From: Opitutaceae bacterium EW11
GTDB lineage: Bacteria > Verrucomicrobiota > Verrucomicrobiia > Opitutales > Opitutaceae
DNA: 64,000 bases
Direction of reading: 5' to 3'
NCBI GenBank assembly: GCA_003054665.1
Contig: QAYY01000013.1
Coordinates: forward strand, 186,001 to 250,000
The notes beneath the pieces are model-generated. The model did not search any database. It was not told where the DNA came from and was given only the letters and a program-made list of their open reading frames with translations. The number at the start of each line of letters is the position of its first letter. The first letter of the stretch is position 1. Below, in pieces: positions 35,625-49,544 of the stretch. The translations under genes were made by a program, and so were the position numbers.

Positions 35625-37111
35625 GGCTGTTTTGCGACCGATGCCGGCGGCCGCGGCTGGTAATATCGTTCGAGCAACGCCAGCGTCACCTCCGACGGGA
35701 GCGGCTGCATCGCCGGCAGGTAGCTCTCGATGCGACTACTGGCTCCTTCTCCGCGGAAAAACGCCTCGACCTGTTTCAGGGCGCGGAACTCGGTTCCGGA
35801 GATGCGTTTCATCTCCGCGCCCGCTTCGCGAAATCGGCCGAAATCACCCGAGGCCGCGGCGGCGCAGAGCAGCCCGGCCCAGGCGCGATAGCCCCCGGCG
35901 TCGGTTGGCAGGGGATGGGCGCTCACGGCGGCGAACAGGCCGGCGAGAAGCCCTGAGTTCGGATGGCGGACGAGGTAAGCGGAAAGGAGTTCGACCGTCG
36001 TCACGTCCGACTGGGCGGAGAGGATGGCGCCGATCTCGGTTTCCACAGCGCTGGTGCGGTCGAGAAGCGTCAACGCATCGAGCCGGAGGGCGATTCGGTC
36101 GCGCATGGGCAGGCGCGAATGCTCGAGTAGCGCGAGCGCGTCCTCGGGGTAGCCGAGCTCCAGGAGGCGCCTGGGGCGATAGTATTCAAGATACGGCGAC
36201 GCGCCGATTGGGGGAAGCTCCAGCAGGGCGGCCCGCGCCGCTTCCGGCGTTTCGTGGGTACGAAGCTCCAGTTCGGCGACCGACCGGACGTCGAGCTTCT
36301 TGCCGGCGGCCAATTCGCGGAGAAGCGCGTCGTTCGGGCTTCGCCGCACGGCGAAGATGAGCGAGTGCAGCCAGGCGGTCGTATGCCCCGGATCGCGCAG
36401 AAGGCCTTCGCGGGAGACCGTCTCGACGGCGGCGAAATCGGCGCGCCAGAGAAGGGCCTCGTTCCAGGCGGCAAGCGTTTCCGCGGCCCGGTCGGGGTGC
36501 AGCTGCAGGAGTTGGGAGTACGTCTGGTCGGCGAGGCCGGGCTGCCCGAACTGCGTGAGTTGTGCGAGCACCCGTCCGAGCGCGTAGTTCGACGGATCCA
36601 ACCGGAACGAAACCGCGAGGGACATGATCGCGTCGGGAACGTCGCCGCGGTCGAGCGCGCGCTGGGCTCGCTGGGCGAAGACTCTGCTCTGTGCGAGGTG
36701 AAATTCCGACCAGCGACCCGGCCAAGCCACGTCGACGTAGCCGAGCGGATATCCGCGCTGCCGCAGCAGCCCCCAGGCGCCGAGCGAGCCGAGGACAAAA
36801 ACGGCCAGGGCCGTCGCCGCGGCAATGACCGCCGCGCGTCCCCAGAACGGGCGCACGTCCGCCGTATCCACGGAGCAACGCCAGCGGCCCTGCGCGTCCT
36901 GCCTCAGCAGCGGACAAACCCGCCGAAAACGAGCGGGTTTGCGAAGAAGAATCGACGGCTCGCAGCCGGTCTCCCAGGCCCGGCCCGAGTCGCTGGGCGT
37001 CTGGCAGGGGCAGGGCACACGGTCGCGTCGCGCACGGAAAACCGTCTTGCGGAAATTCCAGTACAGCAAACCCCAGGCGAGTTGAAGCGCGTCACCGATC
37101 GGACCGAGCAC
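35621..37111 (-). CDS. Membrane-anchored TPR-like protein of the exosortase locus
   Basis: A 496-residue protein. The N-terminal 90 residues contain five cysteines (34, 36, 50, 66, 79) in a CPC-x13-C-x15-C-x12-C arrangement that looks like a metal-binding or ribbon module. A single membrane helix follows at about 92-116. The remaining 380 residues are helical repeats of TPR type (for example ALDRGDVPDAIMSLAVSFRL and LAAWNEALLWRADFAAVETV). Proteins like this often scaffold exopolysaccharide or protein-sorting systems. It is translationally coupled (ATGA) to the exosortase-EpsI gene. The precise role is unknown. Confidence 0.75.
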   Translation of the reverse strand: MLGPIGDALQLAWGLLYWNFRKTVFRARRDRVPCPCQTPSDSGRAWETGCEPSILLRKPARFRRVCPLLRQDAQGRWRCSVDTADVRPFWGRAAVIAAATALAVFVLGSLGAWGLLRQRGYPLGYVDVAWPGRWSEFHLAQSRVFAQRAQRALDRGDVPDAIMSLAVSFRLDPSNYALGRVLAQLTQFGQPGLADQTYSQLLQLHPDRAAETLAAWNEALLWRADFAAVETVSREGLLRDPGHTTAWLHSLIFAVRRSPNDALLRELAAGKKLDVRSVAELELRTHETPEAARAALLELPPIGASPYLEYYRPRRLLELGYPEDALALLEHSRLPMRDRIALRLDALTLLDRTSAVETEIGAILSAQSDVTTVELLSAYLVRHPNSGLLAGLFAAVSAHPLPTDAGGYRAWAGLLCAAAASGDFGRFREAGAEMKRISGTEFRALKQVEAFFRGEGASSRIESYLPAMQPLPSEVTLALLERYYQPRPPASVAKQP

Positions 37112-37160
37112 AGGGAAAACCTAGGGGCGCCTCCTAGGCCGGGAAAGCGTGAAGTTGGGG

Positions 37161-37412
37161 CCGCGCGGCCGTGAACCGCGCGGAGGAGTTGGGCGTTGGA
37201 ATTTGGAGGTTCGATCTTGGGCGGTGATGGGCACCTCGCGGGATTGGGTTCGTGCCCTCGGACCTGCACGGCGATGAACGCGGATGCGGCTTGTCGACGT
37301 GGCGCCAGGAGCCGGAGACGCCGAACACCGACTACCTATGTCTTGGCAGGACCGACCAACTACCAACTACCAACTTCCAACTTCCCCGCCGCCCGGCCGC
37401 GGGCGGCGGCTA
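37161..37412. repeat. Hairpin-heptad element B
   Basis: Left end: hairpin CCGCGCGG/CCGCGCGG (37161-37183), then heptads AGGAGTT GGGCGTT, GGAATTT GGAGGTT. Right end: inverted heptads (GACCAACTACCAACTACCAA, then CTTCC, to 37385), then a 10-bp hairpin CCGCCGCCCG/CGGGCGGCGG (37386-37409) that touches the dapF-like stop codon (37410-37412). It fills most of the 298-nt gap between the dapF-like gene and the TPR gene start. The interior has no gene. Confidence 0.75.
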
Positions 37413-38264
37413 AACCTTCACCGCAAACAGCTCCGCATGCATGGTGCCCTCGGCGACCTTGTTCACCGAGCCGGTCATCGTGATCGAGAAACCCTCGCCG
37501 ATCTCGATGCCGATCTGGCCGCCGGGCATGTTCACCGTAACGGACCGGTCAACCAACCCGAGCTTGTGAGCGACCGCGGCCGATGCGCTGGAGCTGCTGC
37601 CGGATGCCAGCGTATAGCCTGCGCCACGTTCCCAGATCTCGATCTGAATCGCGTTTCGATTCAGCACCTTGAGGAACTGCACGTTGGTGCGGCGGGGAAA
37701 GAGCGCGTTCGTTTCGATTTCCGGCCCGTACCGCTTGGCGAGGTCGGGAGAGATGTCGTCGAGCGGGAGGACGCAGTGCGGGTTGCCGATTGTCGCGGCG
37801 CAGAAGGTAAAAGTGCGGTCCAGAATCGTGAGTTTTTCGTTCACCACCTCGCGAGCAGGCCCGGCGACCGGGATCTTGGCGCTGTCGAAGCTCACGGTGC
37901 CCATTGCGACCGTGATCAACTTCCCGTCGTCCTTGATCTCCGACTGCACATGGCCGCCGGGAGTCTCGACGGTGAACTTCGACGATTTCACCAGGCGCTG
38001 GTCCCAGAGATAGCGGGAGAAGATTCGCAGGCCGTTGCCGCTCTTCTCGGCCTCCGAACCGTCGGGGTTGAAGATGCGCAGGCCGAACTCGCTTTTCTGC
38101 GAAGGCAGCGGACCCCAGAGGATGCCGTCGGAACCGACTCCGAAATTCCGGTGGCAGATGACCCGGATCTGCTCGACCGTCGGACCGTCTTTCCACTGCG
38201 GGAAATCGGCCGGGTTCAGGACGATGTAGTCGTTGCCGAGAGCGTGGTATTTCGTGAAGCGCAT
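37410..38264 (-). CDS. dapF: Diaminopimelate epimerase homologue lacking both catalytic cysteines
   Basis: A 284-residue protein with the DapF two-domain fold. MRFTKYHALGNDYIV, ICHRNFGVGSDGIL, IGNPHCVL and ERGAGYTLASGSS are all family motifs. DapF interconverts LL- and meso-diaminopimelate with two cysteines acting as base and acid. Here both positions are serine: Ser75 in EAEKSGNG (normally CGNG) and Ser221 in LASGSS (normally ACGxG). The protein may thus use another chemistry, act on another substrate, or be slow. ATG 38264 is preferred over an upstream codon at 38306. The stop codon sits against repeat element B. The gene symbol reflects homology only. Confidence 0.85.
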   Translation of the reverse strand: MRFTKYHALGNDYIVLNPADFPQWKDGPTVEQIRVICHRNFGVGSDGILWGPLPSQKSEFGLRIFNPDGSEAEKSGNGLRIFSRYLWDQRLVKSSKFTVETPGGHVQSEIKDDGKLITVAMGTVSFDSAKIPVAGPAREVVNEKLTILDRTFTFCAATIGNPHCVLPLDDISPDLAKRYGPEIETNALFPRRTNVQFLKVLNRNAIQIEIWERGAGYTLASGSSSSASAAVAHKLGLVDRSVTVNMPGGQIGIEIGEGFSITMTGSVNKVAEGTMHAELFAVKV

Positions 38265-38408
38265 GGAGCAGGGTCCGTGGGAACACGAAAGCGGGCGAAA
38301 CGCCAAGGTTTTTTGAACCGCTGGTCGGCAGCCGTTCTTTGCCGGGCCGGGTACACTCCGGACCCGCCATGGAGGGCCTCGGTCGGCGTCCGTTTTACGC
38401 GCGACCGG

Positions 38409-39173
38409 CTAAAGATCGTTCAGGTATCGCTCCGGGTCCCGCAGAAATTCGCGGGTGAAGTTCACGTGCGGCAATTCCGAATACTGAACAGGAACGATGT
38501 TGCCGTCGTCGAAGCTGAAAACCTGCGCACCCGGGTAGGCGAGGAGGATGGGCGAGTGCGTTGCGATGATGAACTGGGCGTTATCTTCGACCAGCGACTT
38601 GAGCACGCTCATCAGGGCGAGCTGCCTCTGCGGAGAGAGCGCCGCCTCGGGCTCGTCGATCAGATGCAGGCCGCCCGCCGTGCAGTGCGTGCGGACGAAA
38701 TCGAGAAAACTTTCGCCGGGCGACGGTCCCGATCCGGCGTATTCAGCGGATTCGCCCGAGCGGTTCTTTTCCGGGATTGCGCGCACCTCGGGGCCGACGC
38801 TCACGGTAACCGCCGCCGCCGGTTCGCTCTTTTCCCGGTTTTCACGGGCGAAATGGAAGAAGTCCTCCACGCGCAGGAATAATCCGTATTTCGTCTGCGG
38901 CGCCCAAACGAGGCGCAGCGAACGCGCGAGCGGGTGAATCGGGACCAGCGCCGGATCGTGGTCGAGCGGCCGGCCGGCGGCGCAGGGAAGCTTCGCGCGC
39001 AACCCGATCGCTTCGAGCAGGGTGGATTTGCCGGTGCCGTTTTCGCCCACAAAAAACGTTACCGGCGAGGTGAGTTCCAGTTTCCGAAATCCTCGTACCG
39101 GCGGCAGATCGAATGGAAACCCGCTGCCCGCCTCGACGTCGCCCAAGCGCTCGATGCTGCGAAGGAAGATCAT
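38409..39173 (-). CDS. AAA-type (ABC/SMC-like) ATPase, stand-alone
   Basis: A 254-residue predicted ATPase of the AAA_21/AAA_23 group. Walker A FVGENGTGKST is at 41-51, an ABC-like LSPQRQLALMSVL replaces the signature, Walker B is LHLIDEPEAAL at about 170-180, and the switch region is IIATHSPILLAYPGA. Relatives are found alone or with nucleases in defence or repair systems (OLD, RecF, YhaN-like). No TOPRIM or nuclease gene is adjacent, so it may be a housekeeping orphan. It is divergent from the rsbR operon with a 216-nt shared regulatory region. Confidence 0.82.
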   Translation of the reverse strand: MIFLRSIERLGDVEAGSGFPFDLPPVRGFRKLELTSPVTFFVGENGTGKSTLLEAIGLRAKLPCAAGRPLDHDPALVPIHPLARSLRLVWAPQTKYGLFLRVEDFFHFARENREKSEPAAAVTVSVGPEVRAIPEKNRSGESAEYAGSGPSPGESFLDFVRTHCTAGGLHLIDEPEAALSPQRQLALMSVLKSLVEDNAQFIIATHSPILLAYPGAQVFSFDDGNIVPVQYSELPHVNFTREFLRDPERYLNDL

Positions 39174-39322
39174 GGCCGTGTTTTATAAGACAGGTTCGAT
39201 TGGCCCGCAAAGCTTACCCCCAGAAAAGGGACGAAGCGAATCACCTCAAGCCCAGGAAACGCGCAACTGCATTAATCGACGTAAGTACGGGAAATTTACC
39301 TATCCCACTATAGGAACCTCCT

Positions 39323-39347
39323 GTCGTTGCATTGCGAGTGCAACGAC
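39323..39347 (+). promoter_or_regulatory. 9-bp hairpin in the leader of the rsb operon
   Basis: GTCGTTGCA (39323-39331) pairs perfectly with TGCAACGAC (39339-39347) around a 7-nt loop, 42 nt before the rsbR-like start. It lies in the 216-nt divergent region. It could be an operator or an RNA element; there is no T-tract. Confidence 0.45.
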
Positions 39348-39389
39348 CGGACCATCGAGCGGCTCGGAGCACACTTTTATATCCGGTAA

Positions 39390-40262
39390 ATGAATACCCC
39401 TACCACGATCCCTCAGATGATCGAAAACCATCGGGACTCGCTGCTCGCCGACTGGTTGCAGGAACAGGCGACCATCGGAAGCCAGCGCCTGTTGATCAGC
39501 GACGCGGAGCTTCGACAGCAATGTCTCGATTTCCTTCGGCTGCTTCAGGAAGCGACCGCAAGCGGCGGAATGAAGGACATGAACTCGCCGCAGTGGGACC
39601 GCGTGAAGGAGCTGCTGGAATCCGTGGCGACCAGTCGGGCGCAGCAGGGGTTCAGCCCCACCGAGGTCGCGACGTTTGTATTCTCGCTCAAAAAGCCGCT
39701 CTTCGGCCGATTGCGCCAGGACATCCGGGACGTCGAAAACCTCGGCCGGGAGATTTGGGCCGGCACAGAGATGATCGACCGCCTCGGCCTGTACACGGCG
39801 GAGGTGTATCAAAAGGCTCGCGACGAGACGATTTCCCGACAGCAGGCCGAGATGCTGGAGCTGTCCACGCCGGTGGTGAATCTCTGGGAGGGCATTCTCG
39901 CCCTGCCGCTCATCGGCACGCTGGATAGCTCCCGCACGCAGGTGGTGATGGAGACGCTCCTGCAGAAGATCGTGGATACAGGCTCGACGGTCGCCATCAT
40001 CGACATCACCGGCGTGCCCACGGTGGACACGCTGGTCGCCCAGCACCTGTTGAAAACGGTGACCGCCGCCCGGCTGATGGGCGCCGACTGCATCATCAGC
40101 GGGATTCGCCCGCAGATTGCGCAGACCATCGTCCATCTCGGCGTGGAGCTCGGCGACGTCGCCACGAAGGCGAGTCTGGCCGACGCCTTTCAACTTGCGC
40201 TCAAGCGCGCGGGGTTGGAGATCCGGAGACCGGCCGCATCCGCATTGGCGGGGGAGGACTAG
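39390..40262 (+). CDS. rsbR: RsbR-type stressosome protein
   Basis: A 290-residue protein. An N-terminal helical RsbR-type sensor domain (about 1-150) is followed by a STAS domain (about 160-280). In stressosomes, RsbR scaffolds with RsbS and is phosphorylated by RsbT on STAS threonines. Candidate sites here are Thr177 in LIGTLDSSR and the DITGVPTVDT segment (205-214), both matching family positions. It abuts the next gene with no gap. It heads a seven-gene operon that continues to 45956. What signal the N-domain senses is unknown. Confidence 0.93.
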   Translation: MNTPTTIPQMIENHRDSLLADWLQEQATIGSQRLLISDAELRQQCLDFLRLLQEATASGGMKDMNSPQWDRVKELLESVATSRAQQGFSPTEVATFVFSLKKPLFGRLRQDIRDVENLGREIWAGTEMIDRLGLYTAEVYQKARDETISRQQAEMLELSTPVVNLWEGILALPLIGTLDSSRTQVVMETLLQKIVDTGSTVAIIDITGVPTVDTLVAQHLLKTVTAARLMGADCIISGIRPQIAQTIVHLGVELGDVATKASLADAFQLALKRAGLEIRRPAASALAGED

Positions 40263-40625
40263 ATGGATCGCATTCCCATCTTGCGGATGGGCGAGTGTCT
40301 GCTGGTGACCATCCAGGTGGACATGCACGACCAGCTCGCTCTTGCGCTTCAGGACGACCTTACGTCGGCGATCACGAAGCAGCGGACCCGAGCCGTGCTG
40401 ATCGACATATCGGCGCTCGTCATGGTCGATTCGTTCATCGGACGCATGCTCGCCAACATCTCGGCCATGTCGAAAATCCTGGACGCGGAGACCGTGGTGG
40501 TAGGAATGCAGCCGGCCGTGGCAATCACGCTGGTGGAACTCGGGCTCCAGCTTCCCGGAGTGCGAACGGCGTTGAACGTGGATCAAGGGATGAAACTTCT
40601 GCGGCGAGCTCTCCGTGCAACTTGA
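40263..40625 (+). CDS. rsbS: RsbS-type STAS antagonist
   Basis: A 120-residue single STAS domain. It is the second stressosome scaffold, holding RsbT until Ser is phosphorylated. The phosphoacceptor is Ser57 in ALVMVDSFIGR, the conserved DSF position. It starts on the nucleotide after the rsbR stop and overlaps the rsbT start by 11 nt, so the three proteins are almost certainly made together. Confidence 0.94.
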   Translation: MDRIPILRMGECLLVTIQVDMHDQLALALQDDLTSAITKQRTRAVLIDISALVMVDSFIGRMLANISAMSKILDAETVVVGMQPAVAITLVELGLQLPGVRTALNVDQGMKLLRRALRAT

Positions 40626-41043
40626 GCCCAGAAAACCGGCCGTCGTTCGCGATCAGGTTCTGCCGCTCAAATCCGACGCCGACGTCGTTCAAGCGAGGCA
40701 AGCCGTCCGCCGCGCGGCGGAAGAGCTGAAGTTCAATCTGGTCGAGCAGACGAAGATCGTCACCGCGGCGAGCGAACTCGCGCGAAATACGCTGCTGCAC
40801 GGACGGGGAGGCACGATGAAGGTGGAGTTTGTGGCAGACCTCAGCCGCCGCGGGCTTCGGCTGACGTTCGAGGACCGGGGCCCCGGAATCGCGGATATCT
40901 CGCGCGCCCTCCAGGACGGATTCTCCACGGCGGACGGCCTCGGCCTCGGGCTGCCGGGAGCCCGTCGCCTGATGAGCGAGTTCGACATCCAGTCGAAGCT
41001 CGGCGAGGGCACGCGCGTCACGGTCGTACGCTGGAAACCATGA
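40615..41043 (+). CDS. rsbT: RsbT-type serine/threonine kinase
   Basis: A 142-residue GHKL kinase that phosphorylates RsbR and RsbS and, once released, activates a downstream partner. The family region VTAASELARNTLLHGRGG (N-box) and DRGPGIAD then GLGLGLPGARRL (G-boxes) are intact. The start is a GTG at 40615 inside the end of rsbS. The stop overlaps the next ATG. No RsbU or sigma-B operon follows; instead the downstream genes are a kinase/phosphatase and two histidine kinases, which suggests a rewired output. Confidence 0.93.
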   Translation: MQLEPRKPAVVRDQVLPLKSDADVVQARQAVRRAAEELKFNLVEQTKIVTAASELARNTLLHGRGGTMKVEFVADLSRRGLRLTFEDRGPGIADISRALQDGFSTADGLGLGLPGARRLMSEFDIQSKLGEGTRVTVVRWKP

Positions 41044-42035
41044 TCGACTCCGGAACATCGCTCCTGATCCCGATGGACGAGCCGAGCCGGGTAGGAGAGG
41101 CACGCCGGGCCGCCCAACGTCTCGCCCTACAGGCGGGTTGCGACGAACCGTTGCTCGGCCGGATCGGCATCGTCGTGACCGAAGCGGCGACCAATCTCGC
41201 GAAACACGCGCGCCGAGGCGCGCTGGTCCTGCGCGCCGACGCCGAGCCCGAGCCTCGCTTGGATCTCATTTCGTTCGATCACGGTCCCGGCATGGCCGAC
41301 GTCGAACGTTGCCTCGCAGATGGTTTTTCCACCGAGGGCACGGCCGGAAACGGACTGGGCGCGATCCGGCGGCTGGCGGACCGGTTCCAAATCTACTCTC
41401 AGCCGGGGAAGGGCACGGTGCTGTCGGCCCGCCTCGGCGGCTCGTCGGTCGAAGAACAATCCTATCGCGCTGGAGCGATTTCTGTCTGTGCCAAAGGCGA
41501 GAACCGCTGCGGCGACGGCTGGGCCGTGCAACCTCTGCCGGATCGCATTCGGGCCGTGGTCGTCGACGGCTTGGGACACGGCCCGCTCGCAGGGGAGGCG
41601 GCGGATGCGGCGATCCGGGTTTTCCGGAAGAGCGCGGGCCTGACCCTGCTGGAATTGCTCCACGCGCAGCATACGGCGCTTCGTGGCACGCGCGGTGCCG
41701 CGCTGGCGGTGGCCGACATCTTCCCGGACAAGCGTCTTCGCTTTGCCGGAGTGGGAAACATCTCCGGCTTCCTTGTCGGACCGCGAAGGTCGCACGGTTT
41801 GATGTCGCACGCCGGCATCGTGGGCCACGAACTGGCGCGCTCCGTCGAACTGGAATTCGCCTGGCCCGATCACGGGGCGTTGATCCTGCACTCCGACGGA
41901 CTCTCCGCGAAATGGAACCTCGACGCGTATCCGGGTCTGCTGGCCCAGCATCCCTCGATCATCGCGGCAACCCTCTATCGCGAGAACGTCCGCGGGCGCG
42001 ACGACGCCACCATCCTTGTCCTTACCCTGCCATGA
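41040..42035 (+). CDS. RsbT/RsbW-like GHKL domain fused to SpoIIE-type (PP2C) phosphatase
   Basis: A 331-residue fusion. Residues 1-130 are a GHKL kinase-like domain (VTEAATNLAKHA, DHGPGMADVE, GNGLGAIRRLAD). Residues about 140-331 are a PP2C/SpoIIE-type phosphatase resembling RsbX, with the metal-binding VVVDGLGHGPLAGEAADAA and a late GRDDATILVL. RsbX resets the stressosome by dephosphorylating RsbR/RsbS; here a kinase module is attached. The ATGA overlaps on both sides place it firmly in the operon. Confidence 0.88.
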   Translation: MIDSGTSLLIPMDEPSRVGEARRAAQRLALQAGCDEPLLGRIGIVVTEAATNLAKHARRGALVLRADAEPEPRLDLISFDHGPGMADVERCLADGFSTEGTAGNGLGAIRRLADRFQIYSQPGKGTVLSARLGGSSVEEQSYRAGAISVCAKGENRCGDGWAVQPLPDRIRAVVVDGLGHGPLAGEAADAAIRVFRKSAGLTLLELLHAQHTALRGTRGAALAVADIFPDKRLRFAGVGNISGFLVGPRRSHGLMSHAGIVGHELARSVELEFAWPDHGALILHSDGLSAKWNLDAYPGLLAQHPSIIAATLYRENVRGRDDATILVLTLP

Positions 42036-43825
42036 AAGGAACGGCCCCGCTTCTCTCGGTGCGTTTGGAGAATGAGCACGATGTCGTCGTAGCCCGGCAG
42101 CGAGCCAGACGGATCGCGGAATTGTTGGGCTTCGAGGAGCCCGACGTGGTGCGGATCGCCGCGGCGGTGTCGGAGGTCGCGCGCAATGCGGTGAGCCGTT
42201 CGTCGGGCGGCACCGTCGAGTTTCGCTACGCGTCCGGCGTTCCGCACCGGCTTCGCGTGGTGGTTTCCGATCTGGCGAGAGACGGGGCGGTCCTCCGGCA
42301 GCAGCTCGATCTCGGCGGCGCGGAGGTCGAGGGACTCATCGGCTGCCGTCGGCTGATGGACCATTTTGTCGTGGAGGAGCTGGACGGCGGAGGCGTGCGC
42401 GTCGTTTTCGGCAAGAATCTCCGCGTGGGACATCGCGCGCTGAGCCCGCAGGCGCTGCTCAAGCTCACTCAGGAGCTTGCGCTCCCGCCGAGTCGGAACC
42501 TCGTCGACGAACTGCAGCGCCAGAATCACGATCTGCTCCAGGCCCTGGCGGAGACGCAGAGGCTTCAGCAGGATCTCGCACAGCTCAACCGCGAGCTTCA
42601 GGACACGAACCGAGGCGTTGTGGCGCTCTATGCCGAGCTCGACGAGCGGGCCGACTCGCTGCGGAAGGCTTCGGAAGCGAAGACGCGATTCCTGTCCAAC
42701 ATGACCCACGAGTTCCGCTCGCCGCTGAACTCGATTCTCAGCCTCACGCGGATGCTCGACGAACGAATGGACGGCGAACTCAACGTCGAACAGGCAAAGC
42801 AGGTCTCGTTCATCCGAAAGGCGGCCAGCGATCTCTCCGATCTGGTCAACGACCTGCTCGATCTGGCGCGTGTCGAAGCCGGCAAGGTTCCCGTCCGCCT
42901 GAGTCAGTTTTCCGTGGCGGACCTCCTCAGCACCTTGCGCGGGACAACACGCCCCCTGGTATCCGCGCAGGGCGAAGTGGCGCTGGTTTTCGATGAGGCC
43001 CCCGAGGGCGTGGTCCTTCGGACCGACGAGGGGAAACTGGCGCAGGTGCTCCGGAACCTGATTTCCAACGCGATCAAATTCACCGAACGGGGCGAGGTCC
43101 GCGTTTCCTGCGAAGCCGCCGCGGACGGCCAGATCGCGTTCCATGTTTCGGATACAGGAGTGGGAATCGCGGCGGCGGATCACGAAAGGATCTTCGAGGA
43201 GTTCGCGCAGGTGGAGCACCCGTTGCAGCAGAAAGTGAAGGGCACCGGCCTCGGCCTTCCGCTGGCCCGTCGGTTGACCGAGCTCCTGGGCGGGGCCATT
43301 CGGGTCGAAAGCGAGCCTGGACGCGGCTCTGAGTTTACGGTGCAGATACCGATGGACTACGCCGGCCCACCCGATCTGGTCGTCGCTCCGGAAATGCCGC
43401 TGCGACACGCGGCTTCTCCGGGCTCGGGCTCGCCGTATCTGCTGGTGGTGGACGACGACGAGATATCGCGTTACCTGCTGCGGTCCTCGCTGGAGGCGAT
43501 GGGGTTTGCCGTGGCCGAGGCAAACGGCGCCGAAGCGTGTTTTGCCGCGCTGCGGCGGAGCAGGCCGGCGGCCGTGCTGCTTGACGTCGTCATGCCCGGC
43601 ATGAGTGGGCTGGCCGTGCTCGAAACCATCCGGGGCACCTCAGCCCTCGAGCGGCTGCCGGTGATCCTTCATACCGCAGCGCTTCTCGGAGACGCAGACC
43701 GGCAGTTCGCCGCGGCCCGCGGGGCCAAAATCGTCGCGAAGCAGTTCGGGGAGCGGGTGGCTTGGGAAAGCGATCTGCGCCGCGCCCTTCAGAACGCCGG
43801 GTTGCCGGTATCCATTCCTGCCTGA
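42032..43825 (+). CDS. Hybrid histidine kinase with N-terminal RsbT-like GHKL domain and C-terminal receiver
   Basis: A 597-residue cytosolic protein; no membrane helix is seen. Order: a GHKL/anti-sigma-like domain (about 1-130, SEVARNAVSRSSGGTVEF), a coiled coil (155-215), HisKA with the phosphorylated His226 in SNMTHEFRSPLN, a catalytic HATPase (NLISNAIKFTERG then GTGLGLPLARRL), and a receiver with Asp in AVLLDVVMPG near 517. The ATG overlaps the stop of the phosphatase gene. It could link the stressosome to a two-component phosphorelay. The frame is open much further upstream, but that is antisense-like sequence. Confidence 0.9.
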   Translation: MKGTAPLLSVRLENEHDVVVARQRARRIAELLGFEEPDVVRIAAAVSEVARNAVSRSSGGTVEFRYASGVPHRLRVVVSDLARDGAVLRQQLDLGGAEVEGLIGCRRLMDHFVVEELDGGGVRVVFGKNLRVGHRALSPQALLKLTQELALPPSRNLVDELQRQNHDLLQALAETQRLQQDLAQLNRELQDTNRGVVALYAELDERADSLRKASEAKTRFLSNMTHEFRSPLNSILSLTRMLDERMDGELNVEQAKQVSFIRKAASDLSDLVNDLLDLARVEAGKVPVRLSQFSVADLLSTLRGTTRPLVSAQGEVALVFDEAPEGVVLRTDEGKLAQVLRNLISNAIKFTERGEVRVSCEAAADGQIAFHVSDTGVGIAAADHERIFEEFAQVEHPLQQKVKGTGLGLPLARRLTELLGGAIRVESEPGRGSEFTVQIPMDYAGPPDLVVAPEMPLRHAASPGSGSPYLLVVDDDEISRYLLRSSLEAMGFAVAEANGAEACFAALRRSRPAAVLLDVVMPGMSGLAVLETIRGTSALERLPVILHTAALLGDADRQFAAARGAKIVAKQFGERVAWESDLRRALQNAGLPVSIPA

Positions 43826-43827
43826 CC

Positions 43828-45396
43828 ATGAGTTCCGAAAAAAGTCCGTCGATCCTCGTCATCGACGATAACGACGCCAACCGGTACACGATTTCCCGGT
43901 ACCTTGCCCGGCAGGGCTGGGAGGTGATGGAAGCGAGAACGGGTGCGGAAGGCCTGGAACTCGCCCGGAAGTTGCCGAGCGTGGTGATTCTGGATGTCAG
44001 CCTGCCCGACATCATCGGCTATGACGTCTGCAAGATGCTGAGGGCAAATCCGGAGACGCGTGCGATTCCGGTCCTCCATGTTTCCGCGAGCTTCACCAAC
44101 AGCGACGACGTGGCCTTCGGGCTGGACCAGGGCGCGGATGCGTTTCTCACCGAGCCGATCGATCCGAAGGAACTCGTCGCAACCGTCCGGGCGCTCATGC
44201 GCCTGCGCAGCGCCGAGTCTCGGGCCGAGGCGAATTTCGCGCAGCTCGAAGCGGTGATCAACAGCATGGTCGAGGGCGTCGTGACCGCGGACCGGCGCGG
44301 AAACATCCTGAAGATGAATCGGTCGGCCCTGGCGATCTACGGCTTCAGCCATCCCAACGAGTTTCCGCGGTCGCTGGACGATCAGGAACGGCAGCTGGAA
44401 CGAACGTATCTGGATGGCCGGCCGATTCCGCGTTCGGAGCTTCCGATCGTGCGCGCGGCGCGGGGCGAAACCGTCTCGAATTTCGAGATGCGCGTTCGCC
44501 GCCGGGGGACCGACCGCTGGTGGATCGGGAGTTTCAACGCCACCCCAGTGCGTTCGAGCGAGGAGGGCGAGGGCCTGGTTATCGTTACCGCCTTCGACAT
44601 CACGGAGCGCAAGCACGCCGATGCCGCGCTGGCCGAAGCGCAGGCCACGCTCCAGCGCTACGCGGATCAGCTCGAACAGATGGTGGTGGAGCGGACGTCC
44701 TCGCTCCAGGACGCGATCAGCCAGATGGAGGAGTTTTCGTACACCGTTTCTCACGACCTGCGGGCTCCGCTCAGGTCGATCAAGGGCTACGCCGAAGTCC
44801 TGGTTCAGGACTACGCGCACCGGCTGAGAGGCGAGGGCGCCCGTTATCTCGAGCGCATCATCGAGAACGGAAACCGGATGGAGCGGTTGGTGAACGACGT
44901 GCTCACGCTCAGCCGGATATCCAACGCCAAGCTCAAGCTCGAACCGGTGCCGCTTCAGCCGATCGTCGAGGCGGTGCTGCGAGAGTATCCGAATCTGCAG
45001 AGCGGCATGGCGCACATCACGATCGACCCGATGCCGGTGGTGATCGGCCACGAATCGCTTTGCACGCAGGTGTTCTCGAATCTCCTCGGCAACGCGGCGA
45101 AATTCGTCCGCCCCGGCACGCACCCGGAAATCCGCGTCACCTCGGAGCGCCAGGACGGTTCGGTGAGGGTTCGGGTGAAGGACAACGGCATCGGGATCAG
45201 TCCGGAGTTTCACGCGAAGATTTTCGGCATGTTCGAGCGGCTGGATCCAGAAAACCGATACGGCGGGACCGGAATCGGTCTCGCGATCGTGCGGCGGGCG
45301 GTTGAAAAGATGAACGGCCGGGTGGGAGTCGAGTCGGACGGGCACTCCGGGAGTTGTTTTTGGGTCGAGCTGCCGGCGGCAGACGGGAATCAATGA
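43828..45396 (+). CDS. Receiver-PAS-histidine kinase
   Basis: A 522-residue kinase that starts with a receiver (Asp56 in VVILDVSLPD), followed by a PAS sensor (about 140-275, VINSMVEGVVTADRRGNIL), a coiled coil, HisKA (His in YTVSHDLRAPLRS near 314, bacteriophytochrome type) and HATPase (NLLGNAAKFVRPG and GGTGIGLAIVRR). It lies 2 nt after the previous kinase and overlaps the next gene by ATGA. The receiver may take phosphate from the upstream hybrid kinase. Confidence 0.92.
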   Translation: MSSEKSPSILVIDDNDANRYTISRYLARQGWEVMEARTGAEGLELARKLPSVVILDVSLPDIIGYDVCKMLRANPETRAIPVLHVSASFTNSDDVAFGLDQGADAFLTEPIDPKELVATVRALMRLRSAESRAEANFAQLEAVINSMVEGVVTADRRGNILKMNRSALAIYGFSHPNEFPRSLDDQERQLERTYLDGRPIPRSELPIVRAARGETVSNFEMRVRRRGTDRWWIGSFNATPVRSSEEGEGLVIVTAFDITERKHADAALAEAQATLQRYADQLEQMVVERTSSLQDAISQMEEFSYTVSHDLRAPLRSIKGYAEVLVQDYAHRLRGEGARYLERIIENGNRMERLVNDVLTLSRISNAKLKLEPVPLQPIVEAVLREYPNLQSGMAHITIDPMPVVIGHESLCTQVFSNLLGNAAKFVRPGTHPEIRVTSERQDGSVRVRVKDNGIGISPEFHAKIFGMFERLDPENRYGGTGIGLAIVRRAVEKMNGRVGVESDGHSGSCFWVELPAADGNQ

Positions 45397-45956
45397 GTCG
45401 CCGCGAGATTCTGGTGGTCGAGAACAACGTCGATGACCTGTTCTTCCTGAAGCGGGCGCTTCGGTCGGCGGGAGTGACGGACAGCATCCATTCCGTTTCG
45501 GACGGGCGCGCGGCAATCGCCTGTCTGTCGGGGACCGGCGACTACGCCGATCGGATGCAGTGGCCGATGCCCTGGCTCGTGTTCCTCGATCTCAAGCTGC
45601 CGTACAAGTCCGGCCTGGACGTGCTCGAATACATCCGAAGCGCGCCGGACTTGAACCGCATCAACGTCGTCGTCGTGACCGCGTCGGAGGACGACAAGGA
45701 CATGAAGCGCGCCACGGAGCTCGGAGTGAACGCCTATCTCCTGAAGCCGCCGACACCGTACGTGCTTCAGCGGCTTTTCGCTTCGCCGCAACTGCGTCCG
45801 CCCGGCGACCCGGCCGACGGGAAGCGAGGCCGGAGTTATTCGCGAAATCCCTGGCGGTATCTGCACGACTCGCCGCGCGAAATCGGCTGGCTCCTCCTCG
45901 CCGCCGCGATCGGCGTCGTGGCTCTGCTATTCCTCGTCCTCGCGGCCCTGCAGTAG
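45393..45956 (+). CDS. Response-regulator receiver with C-terminal membrane anchor
   Basis: A 187-residue protein. Residues 1-130 are an Rcp1-like receiver (VVENNVDDLFFLKRAL, phospho-Asp66 in FLDLKLPYKSG, TAS at 96-98, Lys at LLKPP). A basic, Pro/Gly-rich linker follows. The last 23 residues (165-187) form one strongly hydrophobic helix (WLLLAAAIGVVALLFLVLAA), a predicted tail anchor. A receiver tied to the membrane by its C-terminus and lacking an output domain is unusual. It is the last gene of the operon, coupled by ATGA to the kinase before it. Confidence 0.85.
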   Translation: MSRREILVVENNVDDLFFLKRALRSAGVTDSIHSVSDGRAAIACLSGTGDYADRMQWPMPWLVFLDLKLPYKSGLDVLEYIRSAPDLNRINVVVVTASEDDKDMKRATELGVNAYLLKPPTPYVLQRLFASPQLRPPGDPADGKRGRSYSRNPWRYLHDSPREIGWLLLAAAIGVVALLFLVLAALQ

Positions 45957-46070
45957 CCTCGGTGCAGGCGCTCTGGCCGCGCTTTTCAACCAGGCGGCGC
46001 GAAAAAAACCTCGCGCGGGGATTGCCGGCGTCGAAGCGCGGACCGTCCGGGCTGGTCGCCGGATCCGGCG

Positions 46071-47561
46071 CTACCGCGCGGGCTGATCCGCGGCCGGTTT
46101 GTATCCAAAGAGCCCGCGTTTCTTGATCGCCTGCACGACGGGGTCGGGGACCATCTGCTCCCAGGTCGGATCTCCGCTGCGGAGCCGGCCGAGCACCTCC
46201 TTGGGAAAGATGTGCAGGATGCGCTGGTCGTAGCCCACGACGGTGTCGATATAGTGGTTCTCCAAAAGATGAGCGTAGAGGTTTCGCAGGTGATCGGCCA
46301 CCTGGAGATTCTTCGCGTTGATCAACACTCCGGAAGCGAAGGCGTGGTTCACCGCCGGCGCGTGCGGAGCGTGGGTGCCGGAGATGTACTGGTCGTAGGC
46401 CTGCTGCTGCATCGGGTATATGTAGAGTTTCACCGCGTTGCGGAAGAGCCTGCCGAACGCCTCCAGAATGCCGCCTTCCAGGTGCTCGTAGTACTTTTCG
46501 TTGAAGACCTCGATCAGGTTTCCGATGCCCATGGCGACGCCGATCATCTCCTTCGTGTAGCGGCGAAAGTAGGACGTGAGCCGGAAGTACTCGGAGTAGT
46601 TGGAGATCAGGACGGTGAAGCCGATGTCGCCGAGCAGATCGACCCGCGAAAGAAAATCCTCCGCGTCGAGCGATCCCGTCTCGAGCAGGTTGTTCATCGT
46701 GATTTCCATCAGCACGACCATGTCCTTGCCCTTCACGAGCGGTTCCTGGACGAACTGCGCGCAGGCGCAATTGAGCATGTCGACGTTGACGTGCGTCACC
46801 GGAGCGAAGCTGCCGCGCTCAACCAGCACGGCCTTTTTGTAGAGGACCTCGGACGGCTGCAGCACCTCGCCGCCGGGACCGAACATCACGGCGTTGGTCA
46901 GGCCGTGCTTCACCAGGAGGAGCGACATCAGGCGGTTGTCGACGCTTGCGAACGCCGGTCCGGAGAACTTCAGCATGTCGACCTCGATGCGATTGGCGCC
47001 GACGTTGTCGACCAGGGACTGAATCAGCTTTTCGAGATCTTCGCGGAAATAAAACGCGCCATAGATCAGGTTCACGCCGGCCACGCCGAGCGCCTGCTGC
47101 TGGAGGACGTTTTCTTTGTCCCACATCCGCACGTGCATGATGATCTCGCTCGGCTGTCCGAGCGGGTCGGTCTGGAAACGGATGCCCATCCATCCGTGGC
47201 ACTCGTTGTTCCCTTTGTAGCTGCGGGCGGCGACGGTGTCGGCGTAGACGAAAAACGTCGTGCGGTCGCCCCGCTGCGACGCGAGGCGCTCGTGCAGGAG
47301 CTCGTATTCGTGATCGAGCATGAGCAGCAGCCGCTCGCGGGAGACGTAGCGCGGCGCCTTCCCGTAGATCGCGTCGCTGAACGCCATGTCGTAGGCCGAA
47401 ATCGTTTTCGCGACGGTGCCGGAAGCGCCGCCTGCCTGGAAGAAGACCCGGGCCACCTCCTGGCCCGCGCCGATCTCGGCGAACGTGCCGTATTTCGGCT
47501 CGTCCAGGTTAATGGTGAGGGCCTTGCGGTTGGTGGTCAGCAGCTCTTTTTGGTCGCTCAT
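46071..47561 (-). CDS. Conserved large cytosolic protein of unknown function
   Basis: A 496-residue protein. Its opening pattern (PKYGTFAEIGAGQEVARVFF, then GGASGTVAKTISAYDM) recalls a widespread group of bacterial proteins of about 480 residues with misleading automatic names and no known function; this is from memory and unchecked. No signal peptide or membrane segments are visible. It contains the sequences CHGWMGIRFQTDP and MLNCACAQFVQEP. Codon use is typical of the neighbourhood. ATG 47561 is chosen over an upstream codon at 47657 in the shared promoter region. It is divergent from sppA (141-nt gap) and convergent with the rsb operon. Confidence 0.8.
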   Translation of the reverse strand: MSDQKELLTTNRKALTINLDEPKYGTFAEIGAGQEVARVFFQAGGASGTVAKTISAYDMAFSDAIYGKAPRYVSRERLLLMLDHEYELLHERLASQRGDRTTFFVYADTVAARSYKGNNECHGWMGIRFQTDPLGQPSEIIMHVRMWDKENVLQQQALGVAGVNLIYGAFYFREDLEKLIQSLVDNVGANRIEVDMLKFSGPAFASVDNRLMSLLLVKHGLTNAVMFGPGGEVLQPSEVLYKKAVLVERGSFAPVTHVNVDMLNCACAQFVQEPLVKGKDMVVLMEITMNNLLETGSLDAEDFLSRVDLLGDIGFTVLISNYSEYFRLTSYFRRYTKEMIGVAMGIGNLIEVFNEKYYEHLEGGILEAFGRLFRNAVKLYIYPMQQQAYDQYISGTHAPHAPAVNHAFASGVLINAKNLQVADHLRNLYAHLLENHYIDTVVGYDQRILHIFPKEVLGRLRSGDPTWEQMVPDPVVQAIKKRGLFGYKPAADQPAR

Positions 47562-47702
47562 GGACGAGTGGCGGGAGAGTAGGTGGAGAAGGTAGTCGGT
47601 TTCGGTCAACGCGCAAAGAGCGTGCCATACCGTCTGTCCTGCGGCCCTGCCGCTCACCGAATTTCACTGGCTGGGAGCGCGATTACAGATACCGTCCGCG
47701 GC

Positions 47703-49544
47703 ATGAAGGCCTTTTTCACCTCGTTGTTGGGATCGCTGACGGCACTCGTCCTCTTTTTCTTCGGGGGGCTGCTCGTGCTCTTCATCCTTGCGCTCGTGAT
47801 CGCTTCCGCCGGGAAGGAAAAGGCGCCGGTCATCGAGAAGGGCTCGTATCTGGTCTTCAATACGTCGCTCAACATCACGGATTCGCCTCCGCCGTTCGAC
47901 AAGGCGGCCCTGGCCAAGCTTTTTGGCGGCGACGCCGAGACCCACACGATGCAGCTCCGCCAGATCACGAACGCCCTGCGCGTCGCGGCGAAAGACGATC
48001 GCATCGCCGGGATCTTCATGTCGGGCCACCTGACGTCCGCGGGTTATGGCAGCGGTTTTGCCGCCCTGAAGGAAGTGCGCGCAGCACTGGCGGAGTTCAA
48101 GGCGGCGAAAAAGCCAATCGTGGCTTACGTGGATTTCGCGACCACGCGGGACATGTATCTGGCGTCCGCCGCGGACGAAGTGGTGCTCGATCCGTTCGGA
48201 ATGGTTTTCATGCCGGGACTCGCGTCCGAACCGATGTTCATGGCGGGTGCTTTCGAGAAGTACGGCGTCGGCGTGCAGGTCACGCGCGCCGGAAAATACA
48301 AATCCTACGTCGAACCGTTTATCCGAAAGGACATGAGCCCCGAGAACCGCGAGCAGCTGCAGAAGCTGCTGGATGATCTCTGGGGCGGGCTGGTGACGGA
48401 TATTTCCGAGGCTCGCGGAATGAAGCCGAAGGATTTCCAGGCGCTGGTCGATGCCGAAGGGTTGATTCGCGCCGACGCCGCCGTGAAGGCGAAGCTCGTC
48501 ACGCGCGTCGGCTACCGCGATCAGGTCTACGACGAACTCAAGACCCGCACCGGTCGGGCCGGCTCGAAGGAGCCGTTCAAACAGGTGTCCCTGGTCGACT
48601 ACGCTTCCAACGCCCACGACGAACCGGTGCACGCCGCCAATGCGAAGCCGGCCCCCGCCGACAAGAAGAGCAAGCCCGGCAAGATCGCGGTCGTCTACGC
48701 GGAGGGCGCGATCGTCGACGGCCAGGGGGAAAACGACGAGATCGGCGGCGACCGGTTTTCCCGCGAGCTGCGGAAATTCCGCCAGGACGACGACGTGAGA
48801 GCCATCGTGCTTCGCGTGAACAGCCCGGGAGGCTCCGCCACGGCTTCGGAAGAAATCCAGCGCGAGATCCGGCTCGCGCGCCAAGTGAAGCCGGTGATCG
48901 TTTCGATGGGCTCGTACGCCGCGTCGGGTGGGTATTGGATTTCCGCGTACGGCGATCGAATTTTCGCCGAGCCGACGACCATCACCGGCTCGATCGGCGT
49001 CTTCGGTATCTTTTTCGACGTGCAGAAGCTCTTTAGCAACTTCGGCCTCACCTTTGATCGGGTGAAGACCGGCAAGTTTGCCGACGTCGCAACCATTTCC
49101 CGTCCGAAAACCGACGAGGAAATGGCCATGTTTCAGCACATGATCGACTGGATCTACGGCCAGTTCATCAGCAAGGTCGTCGAAGGCCGGAAACTGGATC
49201 GGGCCAAGGTGGAGGAGATCGCGCAGGGCCGGGTCTGGTCCGGCGCCGAGGGTGTGAAGCTCGGGCTGGTGGACGAGATCGGCGGCCTGGACGCAGCCAT
49301 TCGTTACGCCGCCGACAAAGCCGGACTGGGCGACCATTACCGGCTGGCGGAATTTCCGCGCAAGATGGAGCTGGCCGAAGCCATTGCCGAAGCGTTCGGC
49401 GGCATAAAGCCGGCGAGTTCGCGCACGAATGGCGTCGTGTCCCAGGCGCTCGACCGCGTCCAGCAGGAGGCGCGCATGCTGGAGCAGTTCAACGATCGGT
49501 CGGGTGTTTACGCACGCATGCCTTTTGAGTTGCAGGTGAAATGA
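47703..49544 (+). CDS. sppA: Signal peptide peptidase SppA, 67K type
   Basis: A 613-residue inner-membrane serine protease (family S49) with two homologous halves. It clears cleaved signal peptides. One N-terminal membrane helix (about 10-36) precedes the catalytic regions. The Lys general base is Lys200 in RAGKYKSYVEPF and the nucleophile is Ser408 in GSYAASGGYW, matching the E. coli Lys209/Ser409 pair. ATG 47703 is chosen because the 40 upstream codons lack the hydrophobic leader. It is followed by sufT after 31 nt. Confidence 0.95.
   Translation: MKAFFTSLLGSLTALVLFFFGGLLVLFILALVIASAGKEKAPVIEKGSYLVFNTSLNITDSPPPFDKAALAKLFGGDAETHTMQLRQITNALRVAAKDDRIAGIFMSGHLTSAGYGSGFAALKEVRAALAEFKAAKKPIVAYVDFATTRDMYLASAADEVVLDPFGMVFMPGLASEPMFMAGAFEKYGVGVQVTRAGKYKSYVEPFIRKDMSPENREQLQKLLDDLWGGLVTDISEARGMKPKDFQALVDAEGLIRADAAVKAKLVTRVGYRDQVYDELKTRTGRAGSKEPFKQVSLVDYASNAHDEPVHAANAKPAPADKKSKPGKIAVVYAEGAIVDGQGENDEIGGDRFSRELRKFRQDDDVRAIVLRVNSPGGSATASEEIQREIRLARQVKPVIVSMGSYAASGGYWISAYGDRIFAEPTTITGSIGVFGIFFDVQKLFSNFGLTFDRVKTGKFADVATISRPKTDEEMAMFQHMIDWIYGQFISKVVEGRKLDRAKVEEIAQGRVWSGAEGVKLGLVDEIGGLDAAIRYAADKAGLGDHYRLAEFPRKMELAEAIAEAFGGIKPASSRTNGVVSQALDRVQQEARMLEQFNDRSGVYARMPFELQVK

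Follow-up and report, generated by a model that had tools for sequence, protein, structure and literature searches.

A stressosome operon of Opitutaceae bacterium EW11 whose output histidine kinase may dock on the RsbR/RsbS core through its own RsbT-like domain

An RsbRST operon with an RsbT-like domain on its histidine kinase

We found, in a 64,000-nucleotide stretch of Opitutaceae bacterium EW11 (contig QAYY01000013.1, positions 186,001 to 250,000; the window), seven co-directional genes at 39390-45956 on the plus strand, which by open reading frames and Pfam encode RsbR, RsbS, RsbT, a phosphatase here called X, two histidine kinases (HK1 and HK2) and a receiver. We read this cluster, with a probability of roughly 0.55, as a stressosome whose output histidine kinase, HK1, docks on the RsbR/RsbS core via its own RsbT-like domain (hereafter T domain). 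The layout, found also in distant bacteria, suggests that a stressosome complex drives two-component signalling directly, and we find it plausible that partner switching directly controls a phosphorelay, as an earlier note on this DNA had proposed. A T domain fused to the output would give a direct, testable answer to the question of how stressosomes signal in the absence of sigma-B, in bacteria of several phyla that include the laboratory model Deinococcus radiodurans. If so, the linker-control toolkit proposed in PMC12143880 would have a counterpart in cis, with histidine kinase and GGDEF outputs swapped behind one input. What we observed directly is the order of the genes, their domains, the conservation of phospho-sites and of catalytic residues, and the conservation across phyla; the folds come from prediction. 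The features are as follows.

39390..40262, plus strand: RsbR, RsbRD_N sensor domain (97 bits) and STAS domain (49 bits), Pfam
40263..40625, plus strand: RsbS, single STAS domain (Pfam); S57 aligned with the DSF serine of solved RsbS
40615..41043, plus strand: RsbT, GHKL serine/threonine kinase; HATPase_c/HATPase_c_2 (Pfam)
41040..42035, plus strand: X, HATPase_c_2 and SpoIIE (Pfam); T domain (residues ~5-133) fused to an RsbX-like PP2C part (~143-331)
42032..43825, plus strand: HK1, RsbT-like N-domain, linker helix, HisKA (H226), HATPase_c, REC (D518)
42041..42418, plus strand: N-domain of HK1 (residues 4-129), RsbT-like fold, box glycines lost, R22 kept
42500..42688, plus strand: linker of HK1 (residues 157-219), single long helix with the conserved signature ELQDTNRGVVALYAELDE, running into HisKA
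43828..45396, plus strand: HK2, REC (D56), PAS, HisKA (H309), HATPase_c (Pfam)
45393..45956, plus strand: last receiver, REC (D66) and C-terminal membrane helix
45885..45950, plus strand: hydrophobic helix of the last receiver (residues 165-186), from hydropathy; absent from the comparison loci

Reading the junctions from the DNA, RsbR and RsbS abut at 0 nucleotides, RsbS and RsbT overlap by 11 provided that the GTG start of RsbT is correct, RsbT/X, X/HK1 and HK2/receiver each overlap by 4, and HK1 and HK2 are separated by 2. The seven proteins named in the earlier note and its description of one operon-like unit, with nearly all junctions overlapping or 0-2 nucleotides long, are thus borne out by open reading frames, Pfam and junctions. 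The same holds for its statement that RsbU and sigma-B do not follow RsbRST: neither RsbU, RsbV, RsbW nor SigB was found in the operon by open reading frames and Pfam, no genome-wide search for sigma factors having been made.

RsbR, with an N-terminal sensor domain and STAS, adjoins RsbS and RsbT, as in an RsbRST module. Phosphorylatable residues are present in both STAS proteins, Ser in RsbS (S57) and Ser/Thr in RsbR (S180 and T214). In alignments with the solved RsbR chains of 278 residues, T214 falls on Thr 209 and S180 on residue 175, a Thr in 9o4r and an Ala in 9o3o. We take these positions to be equivalent to the known sites S59 of RsbS and T205 and T171 of RsbR in Bacillus subtilis, and presumably S57, T214 and S180 act as phosphorylation sites. 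Across the comparison loci described below, the S57 position is Ser in 42 of 43 (Thr in L182), the T214 position Thr in 41/44 and the S180 position Ser in 43/44. T177 of RsbR, considered as a phospho-site, was ruled out, the alignment placing the site on S180 (T177 is kept in 36/44). All three GHKL ATP boxes are intact in the window's RsbT.

The N-domain of HK1 belongs to the RsbT/RsbW/SpoIIAB family

HK1 is a hybrid histidine kinase, with HisKA (H226), an HATPase domain and REC (D518). That its N-terminus is RsbT-like, as the earlier note had put forward, is confirmed. Used as query in its own genome, the window's RsbT matches the HK1 N-domain with an expect value (E) of 2.4e-11 and 37% identity, and at E<=0.001 the three T domains of this operon are the only ones found. 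The first 220 residues of HK1, modelled with AlphaFold2 from five rows (mean predicted local distance difference test score, pLDDT, 83.7; predicted template-modelling score 0.66), form a GHKL-like domain (4-129), a short helix (139-150) and a 63-residue helix (157-219) running into HisKA. Foldseek places B. subtilis RsbW in complex with RsbV (6m37, 6m36) first and SpoIIAB (1til, 1th8) next, at E values from 3.5e-8 to 1.3e-6. By fold and sequence kinship, the HK1 N-domain is a member of the RsbT/RsbW/SpoIIAB GHKL family. Against this kinship stand a sequence search of the PDB, which gave nothing at E<=1, and the Pfam model PF13581, which does not have the HK1 N-domain among its 37 places in this genome.

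Upon closer examination, the HK1 N-domain of the window has lost the glycines of DxGxG and GxGxG and keeps E48, N52 and D80, together with R22, which is aligned with R20 of SpoIIAB. Because the glycines of both ATP boxes are lost, kinase activity of its own is unlikely as judged from these residues, and the reading of the window's HK1_N as an active kinase was set aside; docking is the better-fitting role. The signature of the linker around TNRGVVALYAELDE is strongly conserved in relatives.

The gene order recurs across phyla

We compared 44 loci (L001-L004, L107-L111, L170-L203 and the window), leaving out L005-L006, which have no T domain, and L007-L080; none of these gave matches to RsbR, RsbS, RsbT, the X phosphatase or HK1_N at 1e-4. 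L203 was retrieved through a search with X, the other loci with a fusion of T domain and histidine kinase (T-HK) through HK1 or its N-domain and linker, and the loci without a T domain on the kinase (L183-L187, L189 and L200) were retrieved because the profile matched their linker or RsbT. The T-HK architecture occurs in 30 genes of the 44 loci, or 29 once L202, whose T domain is doubtful, is set aside. We observe that 26 of these 29 stand directly behind RsbR-RsbS-RsbT-X on the same strand, the remainder being L193 and L203, in altered versions of that order, and L177, alone.

The order RsbR-RsbS-RsbT-X-HK1 recurs in Acidobacteriota, Pseudomonadota, Deinococcota (D. radiodurans MP1) and Actinomycetota. 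The survey of synteny and domain fusions that the earlier note had asked for therefore upholds the recurrence of the order and not its uniqueness: an arrangement unique to this genome is rejected, and the fused layout that had looked distinctive has the same order in at least four named phyla, D. radiodurans included.

Profile searches with the HK1 N-domain and linker gave near-full matches in at least 4 of 288 genomes of the window's own phylum (the window's included), in at least 9 of 398 of the phylum of a Massilia genome, with a partial match in G480, and in at least 9 of 297 of the phylum of an Acidobacteriota metagenome-assembled genome (MAG), with two more carrying a GGDEF output. The counts are lower bounds since at most 7-10 candidates per genome were scored, and the Massilia and MAG centres, included in their counts, were picked because they carry the gene. 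Against plasmid records, tblastn with HK1 returned 23 records at E<=1e-60, of which 17 are Deinococcus. Full-length matches to X were found in 2 of 95 relatives (one being the window's own genome), and three more have separate T and PP2C frames. The patchy spread fits horizontal transfer.

Several loci depart from the common layout. A receiver sits between X and HK1 in L203, and L171 and L172 carry an insert, GAF-like by eye, between linker and HisKA. In L193 (3017-4576), one strand encodes RsbR with part of RsbS and the other the remainder of RsbS with RsbT, an inversion with its breakpoint inside rsbS that is either real or an assembly fault. L177 (6037-7518) holds a lone T-HK fusion: RST genes are missing around it on the same strand, and the other strand has just an RsbR-like gene. 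At L182 (4883-6118) we noted a T-domain kinase missed by the HisKA queries and HWE/HisKA_2-like by eye; its upstream RSTX is divergent, with Thr as the RsbS phospho-site. Behind RSTX in L198 (6869-8020) and L199 (6883-8034), both of the phylum of the Acidobacteriota MAG, a T-linker-GGDEF protein (by eye) stands in the place of HK1. Together, the synteny in 26 of 29 and this swap of the output to GGDEF, with T domain and linker kept, argue that T domain plus linker is the connector.

Kinases with the linker and without a T domain occur in 9/44 loci (L109, L111, L183-L187, L189 and L200), and those of Xanthomonas, Variovorax and others start almost directly at the linker signature. Two Planctomycetales kinases outside the comparison (L005:6001-7226 and L006:1943-3180) have linker signature and kinase core in common at 54-55% identity, with a different N-terminus of about 190 residues.

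ATP boxes decay and the domain is retained

Of the 30 HK1 T domains, 7 no longer have the complete DxGxG pattern (window, L003, L004, L108, L176, L110 and L202), and in L177 and L193 the second, glycine-rich box alone is lost; losses comparable to the window's are seen in Burkholderiales and Nonomuraea. The N and D boxes are intact in all RsbT (43/43) and all X (40/40), so that loss of DxGxG is confined to HK1 (Fisher p=5e-5; p=0.003 with Burkholderiales counted once). The strict GxGxG columns are met by none of the 40 X, which carry (T/S)xGxG(L/M/F)G(A/S), and three RsbT have Ser for the first Gly, hence the box comparison rests on the N and D boxes. The arginine at the position of SpoIIAB R20, whose role we take to be partner binding, is present in 42/43 RsbT, 40/40 X, 24/24 HK1 with boxes (three non-HisKA outputs included) and 7/7 decayed HK1 (L193 included, L202 and L177 omitted).

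In a quick tree of 115 T domains (few columns, no bootstrap, the HK1 row of L202 left out), one branch sets X apart (support 99) and another HK1 (94), the RsbT domains making up the remainder; because of this separation, the HK1 N-domain looks old and retained as far as these sequences go. On a tree of RsbR, RsbS and RsbT, from which L202, L188, L201 and L177 were left out, the decayed state needs 4 changes and absence of the T domain 2, well supported branches forcing only 1 each. Repeated decay of the HK1 T domain is further supported by the differences among the lesions.

X resembles a reset phosphatase

We observed that X, modelled with AlphaFold2 from a four-row alignment (mean pLDDT 81.8), combines an N-terminal part matching SpoIIAB in Foldseek with a phosphatase part whose best PDB matches are 3zt9 (E 1.1e-14) and RsbX, 3w40 (1.0e-12), followed by SpoIIE (2.8e-11). 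The margin of RsbX over SpoIIE is modest (1e-12 vs 3e-11), and the RsbU domain of Rv1364c ranks below both 3zt9 and 3w40. The first of these structures, from the Moorella stressosome paper, we take to be Moorella RsbX. The metal ligands D176, D286, D321 and D322 are present, and invariant in four orthologues. RsbX is a single-domain protein and X carries an N-terminal T domain, as do 40 of the 43 PP2C genes of the 44 loci, the single-domain ones being those of L188, L201 and L202. On its modelled structure, X resembles RsbX, the reset phosphatase, extended by a T domain, and because of this resemblance it probably belongs to the core module rather than to the output. The GHKL-PP2C fusion that the earlier note saw behind RsbRST is real; an RsbU-like output phosphatase was set aside, the best PP2C match being RsbX.

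Proposed mechanism and alternatives

The scheme that follows is inferred in all its binding and transfer steps, as are the final target and whether docking turns HK1 on or off. In unstressed cells, RsbT and the T domains of X and HK1 would bind at common sites of the STAS core. When RsbR receives a signal, RsbT would phosphorylate RsbS-S57 and RsbR, which would weaken docking, and RsbT and HK1, the latter through its T domain, would then be released or repositioned. The change would pass along the long linker helix to the HisKA dimer and switch autophosphorylation of H226, from where the phosphoryl group could move to HK1's own receiver, to that of HK2, or to both, and HK2 would hand the signal to the membrane-tailed receiver. 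X, recruited to the core by its T domain, would reset the system by dephosphorylating RsbS and RsbR.

A broader proposal, which we offer tentatively and with the odds somewhat against it, is that these operons represent an old stressosome class in which three paralogous T domains (a free kinase, one on a reset phosphatase and one on an output enzyme) compete for one STAS scaffold that itself holds and frees the output, be it a histidine kinase or, as in other lineages, a diguanylate cyclase; the copy on the output would have decayed, probably more than once, to a docking pseudokinase.

Several observations weigh against docking of HK1 through its T domain. The T-less kinases that retain the linker in 9/44 loci indicate that docking in cis is not essential everywhere. 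Retention of the R20 position is possibly structural, the comparison containing no T domain that does not bind STAS as a control. With E48, N52 and D80 kept, some nucleotide binding by the window's HK1_N is possible, and nucleotide contacts matter in the partner binding of SpoIIAB. Between the two Massilia, nonsynonymous over synonymous divergence (dN/dS) is 0.050/0.254 for the decayed T domain and 0.042/0.196 for the kinase core. Against L176 it is 0.33/0.41 and 0.40/0.52 for the decayed T domain (near 0.8) and 0.18/0.50 and 0.17/0.46 for the core (0.37-0.38). Pairs of intact T domains gave 0.18/0.39, 0.28/1.10 and 0.011/0.37 (0.03-0.45), a fourth pair giving no dS. Constraint on the decayed domain thus holds in the close pair and may be relaxed in the wider one. 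Finally, an interaction between RsbT and VvD1 of Vibrio vulnificus was sought and not found (PMC9237108).

The strongest alternative, which we nevertheless regard as unlikely, has RsbT act in trans: freed by stress, it would bind the HK1 linker, perhaps pairing with the T domain, as it does with the N-domain and linker of RsbU, and the HK1 T domain would be a dimerising cap. Retention of the linker signature in kinases with and without a T domain, Xanthomonas and Variovorax among the latter, speaks for it, as do the contact of RsbT with the RsbU linker (PMC12143880) and the histidine kinases with an RsbU N-domain that adjoin stressosome genes (PMC12143880, PMC9237108). However, RsbU_N has no Pfam match at E<=0.1 in HK1 or HK2, and a mere cap has no obvious need of the R20 equivalent, which is kept in HK1_N even where the domain has decayed.

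It is rather improbable that the HK1 T domain is vestigial or serves generic dimerisation, the kinases being co-transcribed and answering to signals of their own (e.g., through the PAS domain of HK2) while the stressosome acts elsewhere, for example through separate PP2C/RsbW-like proteins. The loss of box glycines in the window, the 9/44 loci without the domain and the higher dN/dS of the wider comparison would suit such a reading, and the genome does encode four more phosphatases of the SpoIIE type as well as, on contig 7, an RsbW-like frame next to one for STAS. Yet the synteny in 26 of 29 and the GGDEF swap with T domain and linker retained speak against it, as do the open frame in the window and its well-predicted fold (mean pLDDT 83.7). 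Chance neighbourhood or an assembly artefact, for which no supporting point was found, can be dismissed in view of the compact junctions and of the strict order in 26 loci, several closely related yet drawn from several phyla.

Relation to known systems

The locus is a variant of RsbRST systems, the known kind being RsbRST with two-component output. RSTX modules followed by two-component proteins are in print, in agreement with the earlier note, and eleven architectures downstream of globin-type RsbR have been listed, RsbU_N not being found on most of the downstream proteins considered there (PMC9237108). Docking of HK1 through a T domain would add to these a connection in cis. We found no description of a T domain on an output kinase in searches of an open-access library and in the texts available; Pane-Farre 2005/2017 and Makarova 2001 may already describe the operon.

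The closest counterpart is the six-gene order STAS-STAS-RsbT-[T-PP2C]-[T-HK-REC]-[REC-HK] of D. radiodurans MP1 (NC_000958.1, 25219-31023), where, unlike in the window, the HK1 T domain keeps its ATP boxes and there is no separate membrane-tailed receiver. Of its old tags, DR_B0026, DR_B0028 and DR_B0029 come from papers and the rest of DR_B0024-29 are deduced from the order. DR_B0026 has been named RsbT (PMC7143949), and the kinases DR_B0028/B0029 are thought to be co-regulated with an anti-sigma operon (PMC6501615); the available text of both papers on this locus does not mention a T-HK fusion.

RsbRSTX with VvD1/VvD2 of V. vulnificus shares RsbRST, an RsbX-type phosphatase and two-component proteins without sigma-B (PMC9237108, PMC10014275). 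It differs in a globin-coupled RsbR, a single-domain RsbX and an output that probably acts on cyclic di-GMP, and no T domain is mentioned for VvD1 in the available text of PMC9237108. The RsbRST-RsbU-sigma-B system of B. subtilis has homologues of RsbR, RsbS, RsbT and RsbX, whereas the window cluster is without RsbU, RsbV, RsbW and sigma-B, its RsbX carries a T domain and its output is phosphorelay-like. Released RsbT of B. subtilis orders the RsbU linker into a coiled coil, which makes RsbU active, an idea that its authors also apply to GGDEF enzymes and histidine kinases bearing an RsbU N-domain (PMC12143880). Such RsbU_N-linked effectors (RsbU, the Moorella diguanylate cyclase MtG and RsbU_N histidine kinases) likewise combine a stressosome-controlled input, a helical linker and exchangeable PP2C, GGDEF or histidine kinase outputs (PMC12143880), but in the window the input is a T domain in cis rather than RsbU_N under RsbT in trans.

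SypE of Vibrio fischeri (PMC12826045) and Rv1364c (a Foldseek match only) resemble X in having an RsbW-like part and PP2C on one chain, in another order and with other companions; TciR, a REC-RsbW fusion, and SypE are other domain combinations (PMC12826045). RsbK of Bacillus cereus is likewise a hybrid histidine kinase of a general stress pathway, with a signalling helix and a C-terminal REC, but its input is CHASE3-HAMP-GAF, without a T domain (PMC4574943).

HK2, the last receiver and other genes

The gene behind HK1 usually encodes REC-HK or REC-HK-REC, and none is present in L171, L172, L174 and L175. In Nonomuraea (L110:6933-9209), the REC protein behind T-HK-REC has a C-terminal part that is SpoIIE-type phosphatase-like by eye. 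The membrane tail of the last receiver, described in the earlier note, is there (mean Kyte-Doolittle hydropathy 2.99 over 19 residues), and it is the only feature seen solely at this locus, so that a membrane-tailed receiver as a conserved part is rejected. No such tail occurs in 19 other REC-only frames of the comparison loci, defined by a REC match without a kinase, T or PP2C match and including several unrelated genes or frames cut by the locus end, nor in five near homologues from its own and two related genomes. The REC frame of L183 reaches a mean hydropathy of 2.13, but near the N-terminal end, and its C-terminus is LuxR-type DNA-binding-like by eye. In several relatives REC is fused onto the end of HK2 in place of a separate receiver. 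Because of these fusions and the tail-less REC frames of relatives, the membrane-anchored end point is probably a local addition.

Upstream, 216 bases lie between RsbR and the ATG at 39173, the first in a divergent frame that is ATPase-like by eye. A scan of 39100-46100 found no sigma-70-like promoter, terminator prediction gave 7 against 5.1 (standard deviation 2.2) in shuffles, and Rfam had no match above its gathering score in 37000-48000. Long antisense open frames, among them 39300-40586 on the minus strand, were taken as chance in G+C-rich DNA.

Elsewhere in the genome, four further SpoIIE-type phosphatases lie outside the operon, and the best of the 37 places matched by PF13581 is on contig 7, where the frame concerned is RsbW-like and adjoins a STAS frame (STAS at 234465). 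With two STAS frames and the RsbW-like frame, contig 7 (231959-235189) holds a possible second partner-switching set, and this set and the other SpoIIE-type phosphatases could be alternative targets.

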